From the NCBI GenBank assembly GCA_021648725.1, contig JAKISF010000032.1, positions 1 through 35,692 on the forward strand: a stretch of DNA of 35,692 nt, in the 5' to 3' direction. Shown piece by piece: positions 30,781 to 35,692 of the stretch. The notes beneath the pieces were generated by a model, which saw only the letters and a program-made list of their open reading frames with translations, did not search any database and was not told the DNA's origin. Within the stretch, counting starts at the first letter, position 1. The number at the start of each line of letters is the position of its first letter. The position numbers were made by a program, and so were the translations under genes. Source of the stretch: Bacteroidales bacterium (GTDB lineage Bacteria > Bacteroidota > Bacteroidia > Bacteroidales > JAADGE01).

Positions 30781-31854
30781 ATGCAAAAAAAGAGCGGGCT
30801 TGATATTGAGCTCGGAAACAAAGCCTCAAAAATCGCCTACGAATATGCGATTGAGACTTTCCAAAACAGAAACGGAAAGAGAGGAGCCGTCGCCTCTAAA
30901 TCAAAAGGCGGATTTTCAAACCTTTTAATTTTCGGAAAAGAACGTATCGGCATCGGGTCCGACGGCATAGGCACAAAAGCCGAACTTGCCGAACGCACCG
31001 GCATTTATGATACTCTCGGTTACGACCTCGTAGCAATGGTTGCCGACGACCTCGCCGCAATGGGCTTTGAACCGACAAATCTTTCTAATGTTATAGATGT
31101 TGATTATATAGACGCTGAAATTATTGACGAATTAATGAAAGGTTTGCGAGATGCCTGTAACTTTGCCGGAATAACGATTACCGGCGGAGAAATTGCCGAA
31201 CTCGGCAACAGAATCGGCGGTTACGGAGAAAAAATGCACTTCAATTGGAGTTCTACGGCGATAGGTATTTTGCCCGAGAATTTAGAAGAAGCAATAGACG
31301 GCAGCAACATAAAACCCGGACAAAAAATATTTGCTTTAAAAAGCAGAGGGTTCAGAAGTAACGGTTTTTCTTCAATACGCAGAATTTTATCCGAAAATTT
31401 CGGAAACGAATGGCATAATGAAGCCTATGATGATAAAAATACTTGGGGAGAAAAAATGCTGACACCTTCATTAATTTATTCACCTTTAATTAATGAGATT
31501 ATTAAATCCGGAACAGAATTAACAGGAGTTGTGCATATAACAGGCGGCGGAGTTTTTGATAATTTACGAAGAGCATTAAAATTAAACAATGTAGGTGCAA
31601 AATTGAATAACTTATTCGAGCCTTTGCCTGAAATGATTGAAATTCAGCAAATCGGAAAAGTAAGCAATGAAGATGCCTGCTTGTGGTGGAATATGGGCAA
31701 CGGAATGCTGTTAGCGGCAGACGAAAAAGAAGCCGATAATATTTTACAAAAAGCAAAACAAATGAATTACGAATGTCGAATTGCCGGCACAGTTACCGCC
31801 GGCAGCAATATACAAGTCGAATTTCCGACTTGTAAAATGAGAAAAGAATATTAA
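30781..31854 (+). CDS. purM: Phosphoribosylformylglycinamidine cyclo-ligase (AIR synthase)
   Basis: Catalyses ATP-dependent ring closure of formylglycinamidine ribonucleotide to AIR, step five of purine synthesis. It has 357 residues, typical of PurM. Motifs in order are SGLDIELGNKA at the start, GSDGIGTKAELA (nucleotide and metal binding, about 59-70), LGYDLVAMVADDLAAMGFEP (about 79-98), ITGGEIAEL (about 133-141) and VHITGGGVFDNLRRAL (about 252-267). It is somewhat divergent from E. coli PurM, lacking the usual PGxY..DYDxAG stretch after GGE. Its first third is much richer in G+C than its neighbours, with many GCC and CTC codons. It has its own promoter and a terminator overlapping the stop codon, so purL behind it is not simply co-transcribed. 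Confidence 0.87.
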   Translation: MQKKSGLDIELGNKASKIAYEYAIETFQNRNGKRGAVASKSKGGFSNLLIFGKERIGIGSDGIGTKAELAERTGIYDTLGYDLVAMVADDLAAMGFEPTNLSNVIDVDYIDAEIIDELMKGLRDACNFAGITITGGEIAELGNRIGGYGEKMHFNWSSTAIGILPENLEEAIDGSNIKPGQKIFALKSRGFRSNGFSSIRRILSENFGNEWHNEAYDDKNTWGEKMLTPSLIYSPLINEIIKSGTELTGVVHITGGGVFDNLRRALKLNNVGAKLNNLFEPLPEMIEIQQIGKVSNEDACLWWNMGNGMLLAADEKEADNILQKAKQMNYECRIAGTVTAGSNIQVEFPTCKMRKEY

Positions 31855-31907: not shown

Positions 31908-31956
31908 ACCATTAAGGCATTAAGAAAAACTTAACTATCCTTAACTTCTTAATGGT
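31908..31956. repeat. Palindromic repeat copy A (before purL)
   Basis: A 49-base element that opens with ACCATTAAG and closes with its exact complement CTTAATGGT. Inside it has GC-ATTAAG on the left and two CTTAAC units on the right. It lacks the third left-hand ATTAAG seen in copy C. The closing arm supplies an in-frame ATG at 31952 ahead of purL. No direct target repeats are evident at its ends. Confidence 0.85.
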
Positions 31957-31969
31957 AAAAAATAAAACA

Positions 31970-34963
31970 ATGAACAGCATTCAAACACACATAAAACCGG
32001 AATACAAAGACACAAAAGGCATCAGCATACAAAATAAATGTAAAAAACAACTTCAAATTGAAACCGGAGAAATAAAAACCTCAAAATTATACACCGTCGA
32101 TTACGAAATTACCGATGATAATCTTATAAAATTTGCCGAAAATTGTCTGAAAAATAAAATTGCCGATGAAGTTCTTATTAATAAGGTGTATGATAACGAA
32201 AAATATAACAGTTTAATCGCTGTTGCACAACTTCCCGGTGTAACCGACGATATAGGAGTTTCGGCACAAACGGCACTGGCGGATTTTCTGAACCGCAAAA
32301 TTGACATAAATGTTCAGCATATTTTCACGCAAGATATTTTTTATATTGAAAATAAACTTTCCGAAAATGAATTGATGCTTATTGCAAAATCATTTCTCGG
32401 GAACCCGCTTATAAATCATATTCAGGTATTTACAAAAGAAAATAACAGCTTTAATTTTACACCTTATGTTCCCAAAGTTGAAATGCAAATTGACGAAACA
32501 GTTGAAGAAATTGATTTGGATATTTCAGATGAAGAACTTATAGAACTCTCGGAAGATAAAATTTTGGCTTTAAGTCTTGAAGAAATGAAAACAATTCGCA
32601 ATTATTTTAAAGACGAAGAAGTTATTGCCGAAAGAAAAAAAACAGGTCTTTCCGAAAAAATGACAGATATTGAACTCGAAGTTTTTGCACAAACCTGGTC
32701 GGAACATTGTAAACATAAAGAATTTAATGCCGAAATTACTTATGAAGATAAAACAACCGGCGAAAAGAAGATAATAAATTCACTTTTCAAAACTTACATA
32801 AAAGGTTCAACAGATATTATTCAAGAACACTTGAAAAGTAATGATAATCACTGGCTTATAAAAGTTTTTGACGATAATGCAGGAACTGTTCGTGCCACAA
32901 AAGACAAACTTTTTGTTTGGAAAGTCGAAACACATAACTCTCCCTCGGCACTCGACCCTTACGGCGGTGCAATTACTGGTATCCTCGGTGTAAACCGCGA
33001 TATTATGGGAACAGGCATAGGCGGTGCCGAACTTTTATTCAATACAAATGTTCTTTGCTTCGGACCTCCGAATTACGATAAAAAATTATTAAAAGGACAA
33101 CTTCATCCTCGCAGAATTATGGAAGGCGTGGTTGACGGTATTGAAGACGGCGGCAATAAATCCGGAATTCCCACTGTAAACGGCTCCGTTGTTTTTGATG
33201 ATCGATTTGCAGGCAAACCTTTGGTCTTTTGCGGAACAGGCGGAATAATGCCCGATAATTATCTCGGCAGAAATTCTTGGGAAAAGCCTATTGATGTAGA
33301 TGACCGAATTATTATGGCAGGAGGCAGAGTAGGTAAAGACGGTATTCACGGAGCAACTTTTTCGTCAACTGAGATAAATGAGAAGTCGCCGCAATCCGCC
33401 GTGCAAATAGGCAGTCCTATTACGCAAAAAAAACTGTCTGATTTTATGATAGTTGCAGCCCGAAAAGGTCTCATAAAAAGCAGCACCGATAACGGAGCAG
33501 GCGGTTTGTCGTCATCGGTAGGCGAACTTGCAGAGATTACAAACGGAGCAGTTGTAAATCTTGAAAAAGTACCTTTAAAATATTCCGGTTTAAAATCTTG
33601 GGAAATTTTTGTTTCCGAGTCACAGGAGCGAATGACAATTGTTGTCGAACCGGATAAAAAAGACGAATTTTTCAAACTTGCCGAAAATATGGAAGTTGAA
33701 GTTACCGATATAGGATACTTCACAAATTCAGGTTTTCTTGATATTCGTTTTAACGGAAAAATTATTCATTACATAGATTTGAATTTTTTACACAACGGTG
33801 TTCCGCAAAAGAAAATGGTTGCAGAATGGCAAGCCCCTAAACTGCAAGAGCCTGAAAATATTAAAATTGAAGATTACGAAAATGTACTTTTAAGACTTCT
33901 GTCAAGTTTAAATATAAGTTCTCGCGAAAATATTATTCGCAAATACGACCACGAAGTTAAAGGAAAATCAATTATAAAACCCTTAATGGGCGAAAAAGGA
34001 ACAAGCCCGCAAGATGCAGGCGTTATGCGTTTGGAACACGACAGTTTTGAAGGCATAGCCGTTTCAAACGGAATTATGCCGAAATTCGGCGATATTGATG
34101 CTTACGAAATGTCGGCGGGTTCTTTCGATGAAGCTGTTCGTCAGATAATTGCCGTAGGCGGAACTTTGCCTAATACCAAGAAAAACGATGATGTTTTTTG
34201 GACGGTAAATGATAATTTCAGCGTTCCGGATAGTTTATATCATCCCGAAAAAAATCCTGACGGAAAAGAGAAGTTAGCTAAACTTGTTCAAATGTGTGAA
34301 GCTCTTTACAATATGTCAACTTTCTATGATATTCCGATGACTTCCGGTAAAGACAGTATGAAAAACGATTTTAAAGCCGAAGGCGTAAAAATTTCAGTGC
34401 CTCCTACAATAGTTTATTCTATGGTTTCCAAGATTAAAGATGTAAGAAAAACTGTAACTTCCGATTTTAAAGCCGAAGGCGATTTAATTTATCAAGTAGG
34501 AAAAACTTACAATGAACTCGGAGCATCGGAATTCTACAAACTTTACGGAGAACTCGGAGCAAATGTTCCGAAAGTAAGAAAAGAAGAGGCGAAAGACACA
34601 TATTTAAAAATGATGCAGGCAAATGAACAAGATTTAATTTCATCAGCACACGATATTTCGGATGGCGGAATGCTTACAGCTTTGGCGGAATGTCTTATCG
34701 GAACCGATTTCGGAGCAAAAATCACAATAGATAATTTAGGCGAGTTAGGTGCAAATGCAAAACTTTTTGCTGAAAGTCATTCCAGATTTATAGTAAGCAT
34801 AAAACCCGAAAACAAAGAACAATTTGAAAATATTTTTAAAGAAAAAGCACATTATCTCGGAAAAGTTGCAAATAAAAAAGTTATGGAAGTATTTGACAAT
34901 AAAACAATTATAATAGAAAGTGATTTGGCAGAAATGGAAAATGCTTGGAATGTTGAATTATGA
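31970..34963 (+). CDS. purL: Phosphoribosylformylglycinamidine synthase, synthase part without glutaminase domain
   Basis: ATP-dependent amidation of FGAR to FGAM, step four of purine synthesis. The chain of about 997 residues is between small PurL (about 740) and the full E. coli type (about 1295). The first 170 residues look like PurS-type alpha-beta units (YTVDYEITDDNLIKFAEN). The linker with WSEHCKHKEF (about 243) and two AIR-synthase-type halves follow: ETHNSPSALDPYGGAITG (about 319-336), DNGAGGLSSSVGELAE, SGKDSMKND and ISDGGMLTALAECLIG. It stops after the second half; no class I amidotransferase domain (with its GVCNG-type cysteine) is present. Ammonia must come from a separate PurQ, not seen in the window. 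The start is set at 31970, because the earlier in-frame ATG (31952) lies in repeat copy A. Confidence 0.87.
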   Translation: MNSIQTHIKPEYKDTKGISIQNKCKKQLQIETGEIKTSKLYTVDYEITDDNLIKFAENCLKNKIADEVLINKVYDNEKYNSLIAVAQLPGVTDDIGVSAQTALADFLNRKIDINVQHIFTQDIFYIENKLSENELMLIAKSFLGNPLINHIQVFTKENNSFNFTPYVPKVEMQIDETVEEIDLDISDEELIELSEDKILALSLEEMKTIRNYFKDEEVIAERKKTGLSEKMTDIELEVFAQTWSEHCKHKEFNAEITYEDKTTGEKKIINSLFKTYIKGSTDIIQEHLKSNDNHWLIKVFDDNAGTVRATKDKLFVWKVETHNSPSALDPYGGAITGILGVNRDIMGTGIGGAELLFNTNVLCFGPPNYDKKLLKGQLHPRRIMEGVVDGIEDGGNKSGIPTVNGSVVFDDRFAGKPLVFCGTGGIMPDNYLGRNSWEKPIDVDDRIIMAGGRVGKDGIHGATFSSTEINEKSPQSAVQIGSPITQKKLSDFMIVAARKGLIKSSTDNGAGGLSSSVGELAEITNGAVVNLEKVPLKYSGLKSWEIFVSESQERMTIVVEPDKKDEFFKLAENMEVEVTDIGYFTNSGFLDIRFNGKIIHYIDLNFLHNGVPQKKMVAEWQAPKLQEPENIKIEDYENVLLRLLSSLNISSRENIIRKYDHEVKGKSIIKPLMGEKGTSPQDAGVMRLEHDSFEGIAVSNGIMPKFGDIDAYEMSAGSFDEAVRQIIAVGGTLPNTKKNDDVFWTVNDNFSVPDSLYHPEKNPDGKEKLAKLVQMCEALYNMSTFYDIPMTSGKDSMKNDFKAEGVKISVPPTIVYSMVSKIKDVRKTVTSDFKAEGDLIYQVGKTYNELGASEFYKLYGELGANVPKVRKEEAKDTYLKMMQANEQDLISSAHDISDGGMLTALAECLIGTDFGAKITIDNLGELGANAKLFAESHSRFIVSIKPENKEQFENIFKEKAHYLGKVANKKVMEVFDNKTIIIESDLAEMENAWNVEL

Positions 34964-34971
34964 ATTTATAA

Positions 34972-35029
34972 ACCATTAAGGCATTAAGTAATATTAAAAA
35001 AACTTAACTAATCTTAACTTCTTACCGGT
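34972..35029. repeat. Palindromic repeat copy B (before the GxxExxY gene)
   Basis: A 58-base element beginning nine bases after the purL stop. The left side reads ACCATTAAG-GC-ATTAAG-TAAT-ATTAA and the right side CTTAAC-TAAT-CTTAAC-TT-CTTACCGGT. Inner units and their spacing match copy C. The right outer arm differs (CTTACCGGT instead of CTTAATGGT), so the outermost stem is partly broken. The GxxExxY start follows 14 bases later. Confidence 0.85.
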
Positions 35030-35043
35030 TAAAAAATAAAAAA

Positions 35044-35448
35044 ATGACGAAAAAAGAAGTAACACAATTATCATACGATATTGTAGGCTGTGCAATTGAA
35101 GTCCATAAAGAATTAGGACCCGGACTTTTAGAAAGTGTATACGAAAAATGTTTACGCAGGGAACTTGAATTAAAAGGCTACAAAGTAAAACAACAAGTCA
35201 ATGTGCCGGTTGAATATAAAGGATTAAGTTTAGATGTTGATTTAAGATTAGATTTGCTCGTAAACAATACAATAATCGTAGAATTAAAAGCAATCGAAAA
35301 TATTCTGCCTGTTCACGAGGCACAACTTCTCACATATATGAAGTTATTAAAAAAACCGCAAGGGTTGTTAATTAATTTCTTTACGGATAATATTACAACG
35401 TCAATGAAACCTTTTGTAAATGAATATTTTAAAGAATTAGAAGATTGA
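35044..35448 (+). CDS. GxxExxY protein (PD-(D/E)XK nuclease-like)
   Basis: A 134-residue protein of the GxxExxY family. The naming motif is G27-L-L-E30-S-V-Y33 in LGPGLLESVYEKCL. A PD-(D/E)XK-type site is visible: Asp70 (LRLDLLVNN), Glu80-x-Lys82 (IIVELKAIE), and Gln94 in HEAQLLTYM. All presumed metal-binding residues are intact, so a nuclease activity on DNA or RNA is possible but has not been shown here. It is bracketed by repeat copies B (14 bases before) and C (seven bases after), and copy D with a broken IS end follows. It has no functional tie to purL. The gene with its flanking palindromes looks like an inserted unit. Confidence 0.88.
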   Translation: MTKKEVTQLSYDIVGCAIEVHKELGPGLLESVYEKCLRRELELKGYKVKQQVNVPVEYKGLSLDVDLRLDLLVNNTIIVELKAIENILPVHEAQLLTYMKLLKKPQGLLINFFTDNITTSMKPFVNEYFKELED

Positions 35449-35455
35449 ATAAATA

Positions 35456-35516
35456 ACCATTAAGGCATTAAGTTTCATTAAGATAAAAACTTAACCATTC
35501 TTAACTTCTTAATGGT
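35456..35516. repeat. Palindromic repeat copy C (after the GxxExxY gene), most complete
   Basis: A 61-base element with three left units and three right units: ACCATTAAG-GC-ATTAAG-TTTC-ATTAAG, loop ATAAAAA, then CTTAAC-CATT-CTTAAC-TT-CTTAATGGT. Spacers of two and four bases are mirrored as four and two, so the strand folds into a ladder of three short stems with symmetric internal loops. The outer nine pairs are perfect. Confidence 0.88.
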
Positions 35517-35542
35517 AAAAAAATGAAAACGAAAACATATAA

Positions 35543-35568
35543 ACCATTAAGGCATTAAGTAATATTAT
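35543..35568. repeat. Palindromic repeat copy D, cut by the insertion element
   Basis: Starts ACCATTAAG-GC-ATTAAG-TAAT-ATTA exactly as the left side of copy B, then departs into unrelated sequence (TAATACTCCCC). The whole right half is missing. It begins 26 bases after copy C. Confidence 0.75.
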
Positions 35569-35692
35569 AATACTCCCCAATTTTAGGACAGCAAGTTAAG
35601 GTGGAAAATTGAGATAAAAAATTTTAATTTTACCCCTTAAAAAAGCAGTATAAAATGAGTAAAAAAAGAAAACAATTTCAGGCATCATTTAA
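35569..35692 (+). mobile_element. Left end of an insertion sequence, probably IS3 family (partial)
   Basis: From about 35569 the sequence leaves the repeat and enters TACTCCCCAATTTTAGGACA, which looks like a terminal inverted repeat. An 80-base leader and the start of a transposase reading frame follow. The right end lies outside the window, so the inverted repeat and target duplication cannot be confirmed. Family assignment rests on the transposase N-terminus only. Confidence 0.5.
35655..35692 (+). CDS. Transposase OrfA-like, N-terminus only (partial)
   Basis: An ATG at 35655 opens a frame reading MSKKRKQFQASF that runs off the window end. The Lys/Arg-rich start followed by F-x-A-x-F resembles IS3-family OrfA proteins (helix-turn-helix DNA-binding subunit). 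Only twelve codons are visible, so this is a tentative call. Confidence 0.45.
   Translation, partial: MSKKRKQFQASF

Follow-up and report, generated by a model that had tools for sequence, protein, structure and literature searches.

GxxExxY nuclease genes are associated across their phylum with hairpins of short repeated words that track the protein

Genes for GxxExxY proteins, small members of the PD-(D/E)XK nuclease family, and hairpins built of short repeated words are associated across the phylum, and across genera the hairpin word follows the GxxExxY protein and not the genome. Hairpins alone, and hairpins together with the gene, are present in some orthologous gaps and absent from others, and in two genomes the near-exact copies of a word-hairpin are found in the same cluster as a nuclease gene with that word. 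The explanation preferred here, to which about an even chance is given, is a nuclease-hairpin unit that would work like a REP element with its RAYT, carried out by an unrelated enzyme. The comparison with REP and RAYT had been drawn in an earlier note on this DNA, and it is apt as logic, although the fold of the enzyme differs.

The window, that is the whole stretch of DNA analysed (35,692 nucleotides), is the entire contig C32 of a genome of 3.24 Mb in 66 contigs. Towards its end, all on the forward strand, lie purM (30781..31854; AIR synthase domains), which forms the left part of a purine cluster, and purL (31979..34963; FGAR amidotransferase domains, start codon chosen within the ORF 31952-34963), upstream of the unit. 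The GxxExxY gene (35044..35448) encodes a protein of 134 aa of the PD-(D/E)XK nuclease family. It is bracketed by hairpin copy B (34972..35029, +; fold -8.5 kcal/mol with flanks), which ends 14 bases 5' of the start codon, and copy C (35456..35516, +; -16.1 kcal/mol with flanks), which starts 7 bases 3' of the stop, confirming to the base what the earlier note had described; the distance from B to C is 484 bases. The two further copies that it had listed were also found, with exact arms. Copy A (31908..31956, +; -12.9 kcal/mol with flanks) lies between purM and purL with no adjoining nuclease gene, and copy D, of which the left part is at 35543..35567 (+), is broken by an insertion. The inserted DNA is probably the start of an insertion-sequence-like element (35568..35692, +), which runs off the contig end. 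ATTAAGTAATATTA adjoins the insert of copy D at both contig ends (C32 and C48), and the right arm of D is probably C48:155-171, beside purQ; this presumed half ends 17 bases 5' of purQ. Four exact matches to the arm CCATTAAGGCATTAAG are found in the window, at 31909 (A), 34973 (B), 35457 (C) and 35544 (D), and with up to three mismatches there are 6 matches against 0.38 expected, a number reached in none of 100 shuffles. The spacer between C and D (window 35517-35542) holds a tiny reading frame that ends in the next left arm; a similar one is seen in congener G002, not in congener G012.

In the whole 3.24-Mb genome the left arm as a 17-mer, ACCATTAAGGCATTAAG, has five copies at 0-1 mismatch, namely the four in the window and a fifth (E, C48:8220) between purD and purN. 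When up to three mismatches are allowed, 17 matches are found genome-wide against 22 for a reversed-pattern control. As this is no excess, the case for the repeat rests on the near-exact copies. These are not scattered, and all belong to one purine-biosynthesis cluster, of which domain searches give the order purM-A-purL-B-GxxExxY-C-D-purQ-purH-IVP-purCE-...-purD-E-purN-purF; the last gene matched a glutamine amidotransferase domain alone, and purF is our reading of it. That C48 follows C32 is inferred from the same gene order in two congeners. An even spread over intergenic regions, which the earlier note had named as evidence against its proposal, was thus not found. The arm was rejected as a genome-wide repeat of this genome, its near-exact copies being in one cluster only, and a known Rfam RNA was also rejected, the three matches up to E 1 being all under the gathering scores.

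Fourteen genomes of the genus, including the window genome (G000), were compared at the purine-gene gaps where contigs allowed, with purH located in 12 genomes, purQ in 10 and purM in 9. The earlier note had supposed that gene and palindromes move or are maintained together; in the orthologous clusters the unit is present, absent or elsewhere among the congeners. A close GxxExxY orthologue (92-93% identical) is found in only two of the 13 congeners. In G012 it occupies the purL/purQ gap, as in the window. In G002 it occupies purH/purCE instead, preceded by a CATTAAG hairpin and followed by a shorter one. Two genomes of the genus thus have the unit at purL/purQ, and a third has it at purH/purCE. 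The purL/purQ gap of G002 holds two tandem hairpins with a spacer of 27-28 bases and no gene. This pair resembles C, spacer and D of the window, which thus differs there by about one hairpin-plus-gene step.

The purM/purL gap also varies. It is 63 bases long in G001 and 83-110 bases in G006, G010, G011 and G012, and no word hairpin was seen by eye in these five. G000 and G002 have a CATTAAG hairpin in this gap; G004 has a CACAAAG hairpin whose end is at about the same position before purL, and G008 has two long hairpins with a DUF559 nuclease gene between them. No clear target-site duplication was seen by eye when the purM/purL gaps with and without a hairpin were compared, nor was any movement seen. 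G004 also carries a different GxxExxY gene at purH/purCE, amid CACAAAG hairpins. With up to two mismatches its CACAAAG pattern has 8 matches genome-wide, of which two form the arms of a single hairpin; every one of the 8 falls in the purine cluster, which here includes the purM/purL gap. At 3 mismatches two more appear on other contigs, and a reversed control gives 12 against these 10 in total. In both G003 and G004, CATTAAG hairpins are kept without a matching nuclease. The simplest account of this turnover is gain, loss and rewriting of hairpins from species to species, with the gene or without it.

Other genes occupy the same cluster. IVP genes lie in other purine gaps of G000, G009 and G011, and an ORF6N-domain gene (L272:949-1467) lies inside a hairpin GACGCTGAT...ATCAGCGTC in the purQ/purH gap of G008. 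Genes for Y1 transposases are found before purD in the clusters of G000 (L021:6436-6921) and G004 (L045:7643-8101), and in the purH/purCE gap of G013 (L274:1483-1887), with several hairpin-like repeats around it. A single ORF within the purine cluster (L021:5192-6397) combines Porphyromonas-type peptidyl-arginine deiminase and DUF6508 domains.

GxxExxY genes are present in 59 of 118 sampled genomes of the phylum, taken here to be Bacteroidota, often several per genome. Among the matches listed of a set of 35, nearly all of them from relatives, hairpins of many sequences lie beside the genes, built of words of about seven bases that fit the motif CRYNRAK. The other two GxxExxY genes of the window genome have the words CACGAAT and CGCAAAG. 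The earlier claim that gene and palindromes belong together thus holds in the window and in the phylum, with many hairpin sequences and not one repeat. Its picture of a gene between two hairpin copies applies to the window; elsewhere the gene is often inside a single hairpin, with the arms just up- and downstream (e.g. L314, L298, L328, L348).

The association was measured on three sets of loci, and the CRYNRAK motif was fixed before the second (the phylum sample) and the third (the fresh set) were fetched. In a flank-similarity test, comparing the 150 bases upstream with the 150 downstream at a threshold score of at least 20, 24 of 44 GxxExxY genes of the first set passed, against 14 among the 370 other ORFs of these loci, several of the high-scoring controls adjoining a GxxExxY gene or hairpins and one (L230:4930) being an IVP gene by position. 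The 44 include one duplicate (L022 is the same as L206) and two loci chosen by their hairpin (L143, L146); without these three, 23 of 41 pass. The phylum sample gave 10/25 against 2/52 controls, and the fresh set 13/38 against 2/105. Scorable genes numbered 25 from 29 loci in the phylum sample (two of them in tandem on L318) and 38 from 40 in the fresh set, the unscored ones having a 150-base flank, complete ORF or match missing. In the window genome the CACGAAT gene is bracketed (flank score 55) and the CGCAAAG gene is below the threshold (12.5).

A motif test, asking for at least two sense CRYNRAK words upstream and at least two antisense words downstream, was passed by 13 of the 41 genes in the set from which the motif came (5/358 controls), by 12/25 in the phylum sample (0/52 controls; p 1.3e-8) and by 10/38 in the fresh set (1/105 controls; p 5e-11). 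At least one word on each side was found for 26/41, 18/25 and 21/38 genes in the three sets. Hairpins at GxxExxY genes therefore exceed those at neighbouring genes on all three locus sets, and about half of the GxxExxY genes, or more, fail each threshold used. The possibility raised in the earlier note, that relatives have GxxExxY genes with no such repeat nearby, is borne out for the window repeat itself, which they generally lack; about half or more, depending on the measure, have hairpin words of their own.

Spacing between the words is mostly 8-11 bases (110 of the 140 spacings not exceeding 30 bases, and 62/83 in the fresh set). Control flanks have the same tendency (68/117 at 8-11 bases), which we attribute to neighbouring genes sharing the same hairpins. 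When the two flanks of a gene were paired with each other as a duplex, the pairing ranked in the top tenth for 26/41 and 12/25 GxxExxY genes, for 14/26 IVP genes and for 12/60 controls (the first 60 of 101), a control figure itself above the 6 expected. On one locus of genome G131 two GxxExxY genes stand in tandem with the same flanking words (L318:743-1162 and 1483-1902), possibly by recent duplication of a unit.

Two other kinds of small gene were seen in comparable surroundings. IVP or four-helix genes (L236-L265; L021:2725-3069) are often inside inverted repeats of other words, such as GTAAGTA, ATTACGA and TAATGAACAATG. They occur in up to 15 copies per genome, and 9 of 26 reach a flank score of 20 against 3/49 controls; their loci have the inverted repeats without the CRYNRAK motif (0.15 and 0.12 words). 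DUF559 nuclease genes (L375:2795-3175; L381-L397, the gene of L395 being the same as that of L375) are bracketed by repeats, which in G008 are long C/G-rich hairpins, CCCCCTAACCCCC...GGGGGTTAGGGGG. With the compared flanks widened 15 bases into the gene, stand-alone DUF559 genes score at least 20 in 5 of 8 cases against 0/26 controls.

The window protein matches PF13366 (PDDEXK_3; E 3.8e-41, 140.6 bits, cut-off 22) and TIGR04256 (GxxExxY; E 3.6e-43, 146.6 bits, cut-off 35). Across an alignment of 30 family members, residues E30, D70, E80, K82, Q94 and Y98 do not vary. The E, D and ExK with QxxxY are motifs of the RecB/Cas4 type, and this set with QxxxY presumably marks DNA nucleases. An AlphaFold2 model built from eight sequences (pLDDT 94.7, pTM 0.88) had as its best Foldseek match in the PDB 4ic1 (SSO0001, a Cas4; E 1.5e-3, TM by query 0.57); lambda exonuclease and LHK-Exo came next and tRNA-splicing endonucleases lower, none of these folds reaching E 0.001. 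The Pfam Cas_Cas4 match is under its cut-off (17.2 bits against 22.7), and in PADLOC at E up to 0.1 GxxExxY was matched by the Cas4 and Cas4b models only. Searches up to E 1 gave no solved homologue by sequence and, in Pfam, no Y1 transposase family in the flanked gene. Viral contigs yielded no close relatives of the window protein and four distant ones with the family alignment. Conserved residues and modelled fold together make a DNA nuclease the likelier guess for GxxExxY.

In the preferred explanation GxxExxY, as a small RecB/Cas4-like nuclease, would read the word of about seven nucleotides that recurs in the arms of its own, imperfect hairpin. It would be catalytically active and would take as substrate the folded hairpin, as DNA rather than RNA, nicking or cutting it either in single strand during replication or as a cruciform. 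Repair or copying would then place hairpins, with or without the gene, in other intergenic sites, which within this genus would be chiefly nearby in the same cluster. A wider version, held more tentatively and a little below an even chance, is that these are selfish units spread through the phylum, that the words amount to a readable protein-to-DNA code, and that the gaps are contested with IVP, DUF559 and ORF6N units, each with its own hairpin type.

The main rival is a role in RNA processing. Hairpins in the polycistronic mRNA would be sites of processing, stability or attenuation, and GxxExxY would bind or cut its own word and so regulate itself and its neighbours. Consistent with this, 81 of 97 GxxExxY genes point the same way as both of their neighbours, against 347/492 for all ORFs on the loci (p 0.0018 against the rest; the 97 are those of 104 GxxExxY genes with an ORF on both sides, and the 492 include GxxExxY genes). 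The hairpins also stand close before start codons and within operons, and the CATTAAG copies read in the purine clusters are oriented as transcription. However, the conserved residues are those of the RecB/Cas4 set with QxxxY, which we take as the mark of a DNA nuclease, and lambda exonuclease and LHK-Exo are among the best folds, tRNA-splicing endonucleases ranking below them. An RNA-level unit alone also leaves unexplained the congener gaps that have no hairpin, a changed word or other genes. This reading is considered unlikely, with something over a fifth of the probability.

How the word relates to the protein was assessed on 106 flank sets of GxxExxY genes, of which the 78 with at least four words and a distinct protein were used and 28 were left out. 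The more alike two proteins are, the more alike are their words (rho 0.36 over 2,841 pairs from different genera; 0 of 2,000 permutations), the word cosine between genera going from 0.03 below 30% identity to 0.63 at 70-80% (19 pairs). Different GxxExxY genes within one genome have a word similarity of 0.145 (53 pairs), hardly above the 0.129 between genomes. The non-word 7-mers of the same flanks have no such identity trend (rho -0.05; 0.02 at 45-80% identity), rising slightly in the closest pairs (0.134 at 70-80%, 0.350 above 80%), which argues against mere linkage. The simplest account of the co-variation is that the protein reads the word; a hairpin that merely regulates the gene could produce it as well. 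On the tree, 15 changes are counted at word position 2 against 24.3 in shuffles, indicating that related proteins share words. Among residue-base pairs, T10 goes with G at word position 5 in 22 of 23 cases and N97 with T at position 7 in 18 of 18. The independent pairs that are supported are too few (three for word position 2) to establish a residue-by-base link, and thus no residue-base code is claimed as shown.

The association was also approached from the hairpin. A scan for the CATTAAG hairpin gave at least 120 stretches, and 30 genomes were picked by hand from those behind the 80 loci listed. Five of these 120 stretches hold a GxxExxY gene, in each case with a hairpin directly adjoining, and 115 are without one. 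All 30 genomes have some GxxExxY gene. In 14 there is one at 65-80% identity to the window protein, and in 16 there is none at or above 65%. Two of the 14 were picked with the hairpin beside a GxxExxY gene; the other 12 are among the 28 genomes whose hairpin stretch held none. All 14 genes at or above 65% identity have at least one CATTAAG in their flanks, whereas for the 13 scorable best matches at 38-55% identity (3 more were unscorable) CATTAAG is not among the four commonest words, the number compared per locus. The phylum sample has no protein at or above 65% identity among its 63 GxxExxY, and at least one flanking CATTAAG is found in 4 of these and two in none; its member on L342, 63% identical to the window protein, has CACTAAG as its commonest word.

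Most of the 30 genomes are Flavobacterium, and thus shared ancestry contributes to this split. The same result was obtained in Runella, Pedobacter, Terrimonas and a Bacteroidales MAG. The CATTAAG-type GxxExxY gene of that MAG lies between cytochrome b and Rieske genes, and that of L143 beside an alpha-2-macroglobulin gene; together with the purine locus, one nuclease clade with one word is therefore found in three neighbourhoods. The hairpins without a nuclease can be relics, or copies made in trans by analogy with REPs, and they also fit a hairpin that needs no nuclease. CATTAAG hairpins were seen on two loci (L087, L129) of a MAG named Candidatus Nitrotoga, by transfer or from misbinned contigs.

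A second rival is that slippage and gene conversion in AT-rich intergenic DNA produce such hairpins generally, and that GxxExxY genes settle there without using them. The many genomes with CATTAAG hairpins away from any GxxExxY gene would be expected in that case, as would the neighbouring genes, among the top controls, that also adjoin such hairpins. Slippage does not, however, predict co-variation of word and protein across genera with the other 7-mers of the flanks unlinked, nor the CATTAAG split between proteins at least 65% identical and those at 38-55%, and we regard it as improbable.

A true REP/RAYT system would have a Y1 (HUH) transposase moving the hairpins, with GxxExxY as a passenger caught between copies. 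In its favour is the presence of a Y1 transposase gene in the purine clusters of G000, G004 and G013. The Y1 protein of G000 has, however, the sequence YILNQKEHH, near the YIKNQKEHH of subclass 1.2, which in the part of PMC6006769 consulted is listed without such structures. Furthermore, the hairpin base is without the GT[AG]G foot, and the word goes with the GxxExxY protein rather than with the genome. This reading is considered slightly more improbable still. Equally doubtful is a toxin-antitoxin or guardian pair kept by addiction, in which the repeats, as RNA or DNA, would bind and restrain the nuclease as repeat RNAs do in type III toxin-antitoxin pairs: a nuclease beside co-varying repeats would fit, but the repeats are palindromic, lie on both sides and also stand alone elsewhere, and the PADLOC matches at E up to 0.1 are Cas4 and Cas4b models only.

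The nuclease-hairpin unit would have consequences beyond this locus. A hairpin word for each GxxExxY makes the function testable, as the flanks give the predicted substrate wherever a copy has word-hairpins. If the enzyme reads the word, the family would be a natural collection of compact nucleases whose recognition words differ and can be predicted. Such units could explain many of the odd intergenic inverted repeats of the phylum, and they would be an independent parallel to REP/RAYT biology.

In the open-access literature, as far as its available text goes, GxxExxY appears in passing mentions with no function given, and among titles and the starts of abstracts in PMC (preprints being outside this scope) no pairing of GxxExxY with hairpins is described. 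The GxxExxY gene and its hairpin are filed here as a system of its own, putatively REPtron-like in its working, since two REP features (the enzyme and the GT[AG]G foot) are lacking, it is not an rRNA intervening sequence, and the pairing is undescribed in the literature searched. The intervening sequences of 23S rRNA carry the gene of the IVP four-helix protein, in rRNA. GxxExxY shares with them a small gene inside a hairpin, and IVP genes (PF05635/TIGR02436) also lie inside word-built inverted repeats in some relatives, in the same purine gaps; it differs from them in its protein, in its words and in its place between protein-coding genes. The Cas4, RecB and lambda-exonuclease branch is approached through the invariant E, D, ExK and QxxxY, the weak Cas4 profile matches and 4ic1 as the best fold, although GxxExxY has only 134 aa and a best Foldseek E of 1.5e-3. 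With free-standing homing endonucleases the unit shares a nuclease gene that some close relatives have in a given gap and others lack; it differs in that hairpins flank the GxxExxY gene and also occur alone.

The TAACTGA heptamer repeats, which occur in some Bacteroidetes among others, are also seven-base words just upstream of start codons; they differ in being nearly all direct repeats of one word, and the abstract of PMC4679880 mentions no nuclease gene with them. The closest comparison is with REPtrons. GxxExxY is a PD-(D/E)XK enzyme and not HUH/Y1. PMC6006769 gives GT[AG]G at the hairpin foot as the criterion for REP and RAYT; the feet of the GxxExxY hairpins read AACCATTAAG, and neither A, B, C and E at their bases nor D at its left foot have GT[AG]G. 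Unlike in REPtrons, the arms are built of repeated words of about seven nucleotides, the gene is often inside the hairpin, and the near-exact copies of the window genome are confined to one cluster. In Flavobacterium and some other genomes, hairpins are found apart from the gene. In the sections of PMC8266576 and PMC6006769 consulted, enzyme and repeat are said to have co-evolved in REP/TnpAREP systems. As in the REPtrons of these two sources, a small nuclease gene is flanked by imperfect palindromes, each enzyme has its own repeat family, and the repeats are also found alone between genes.
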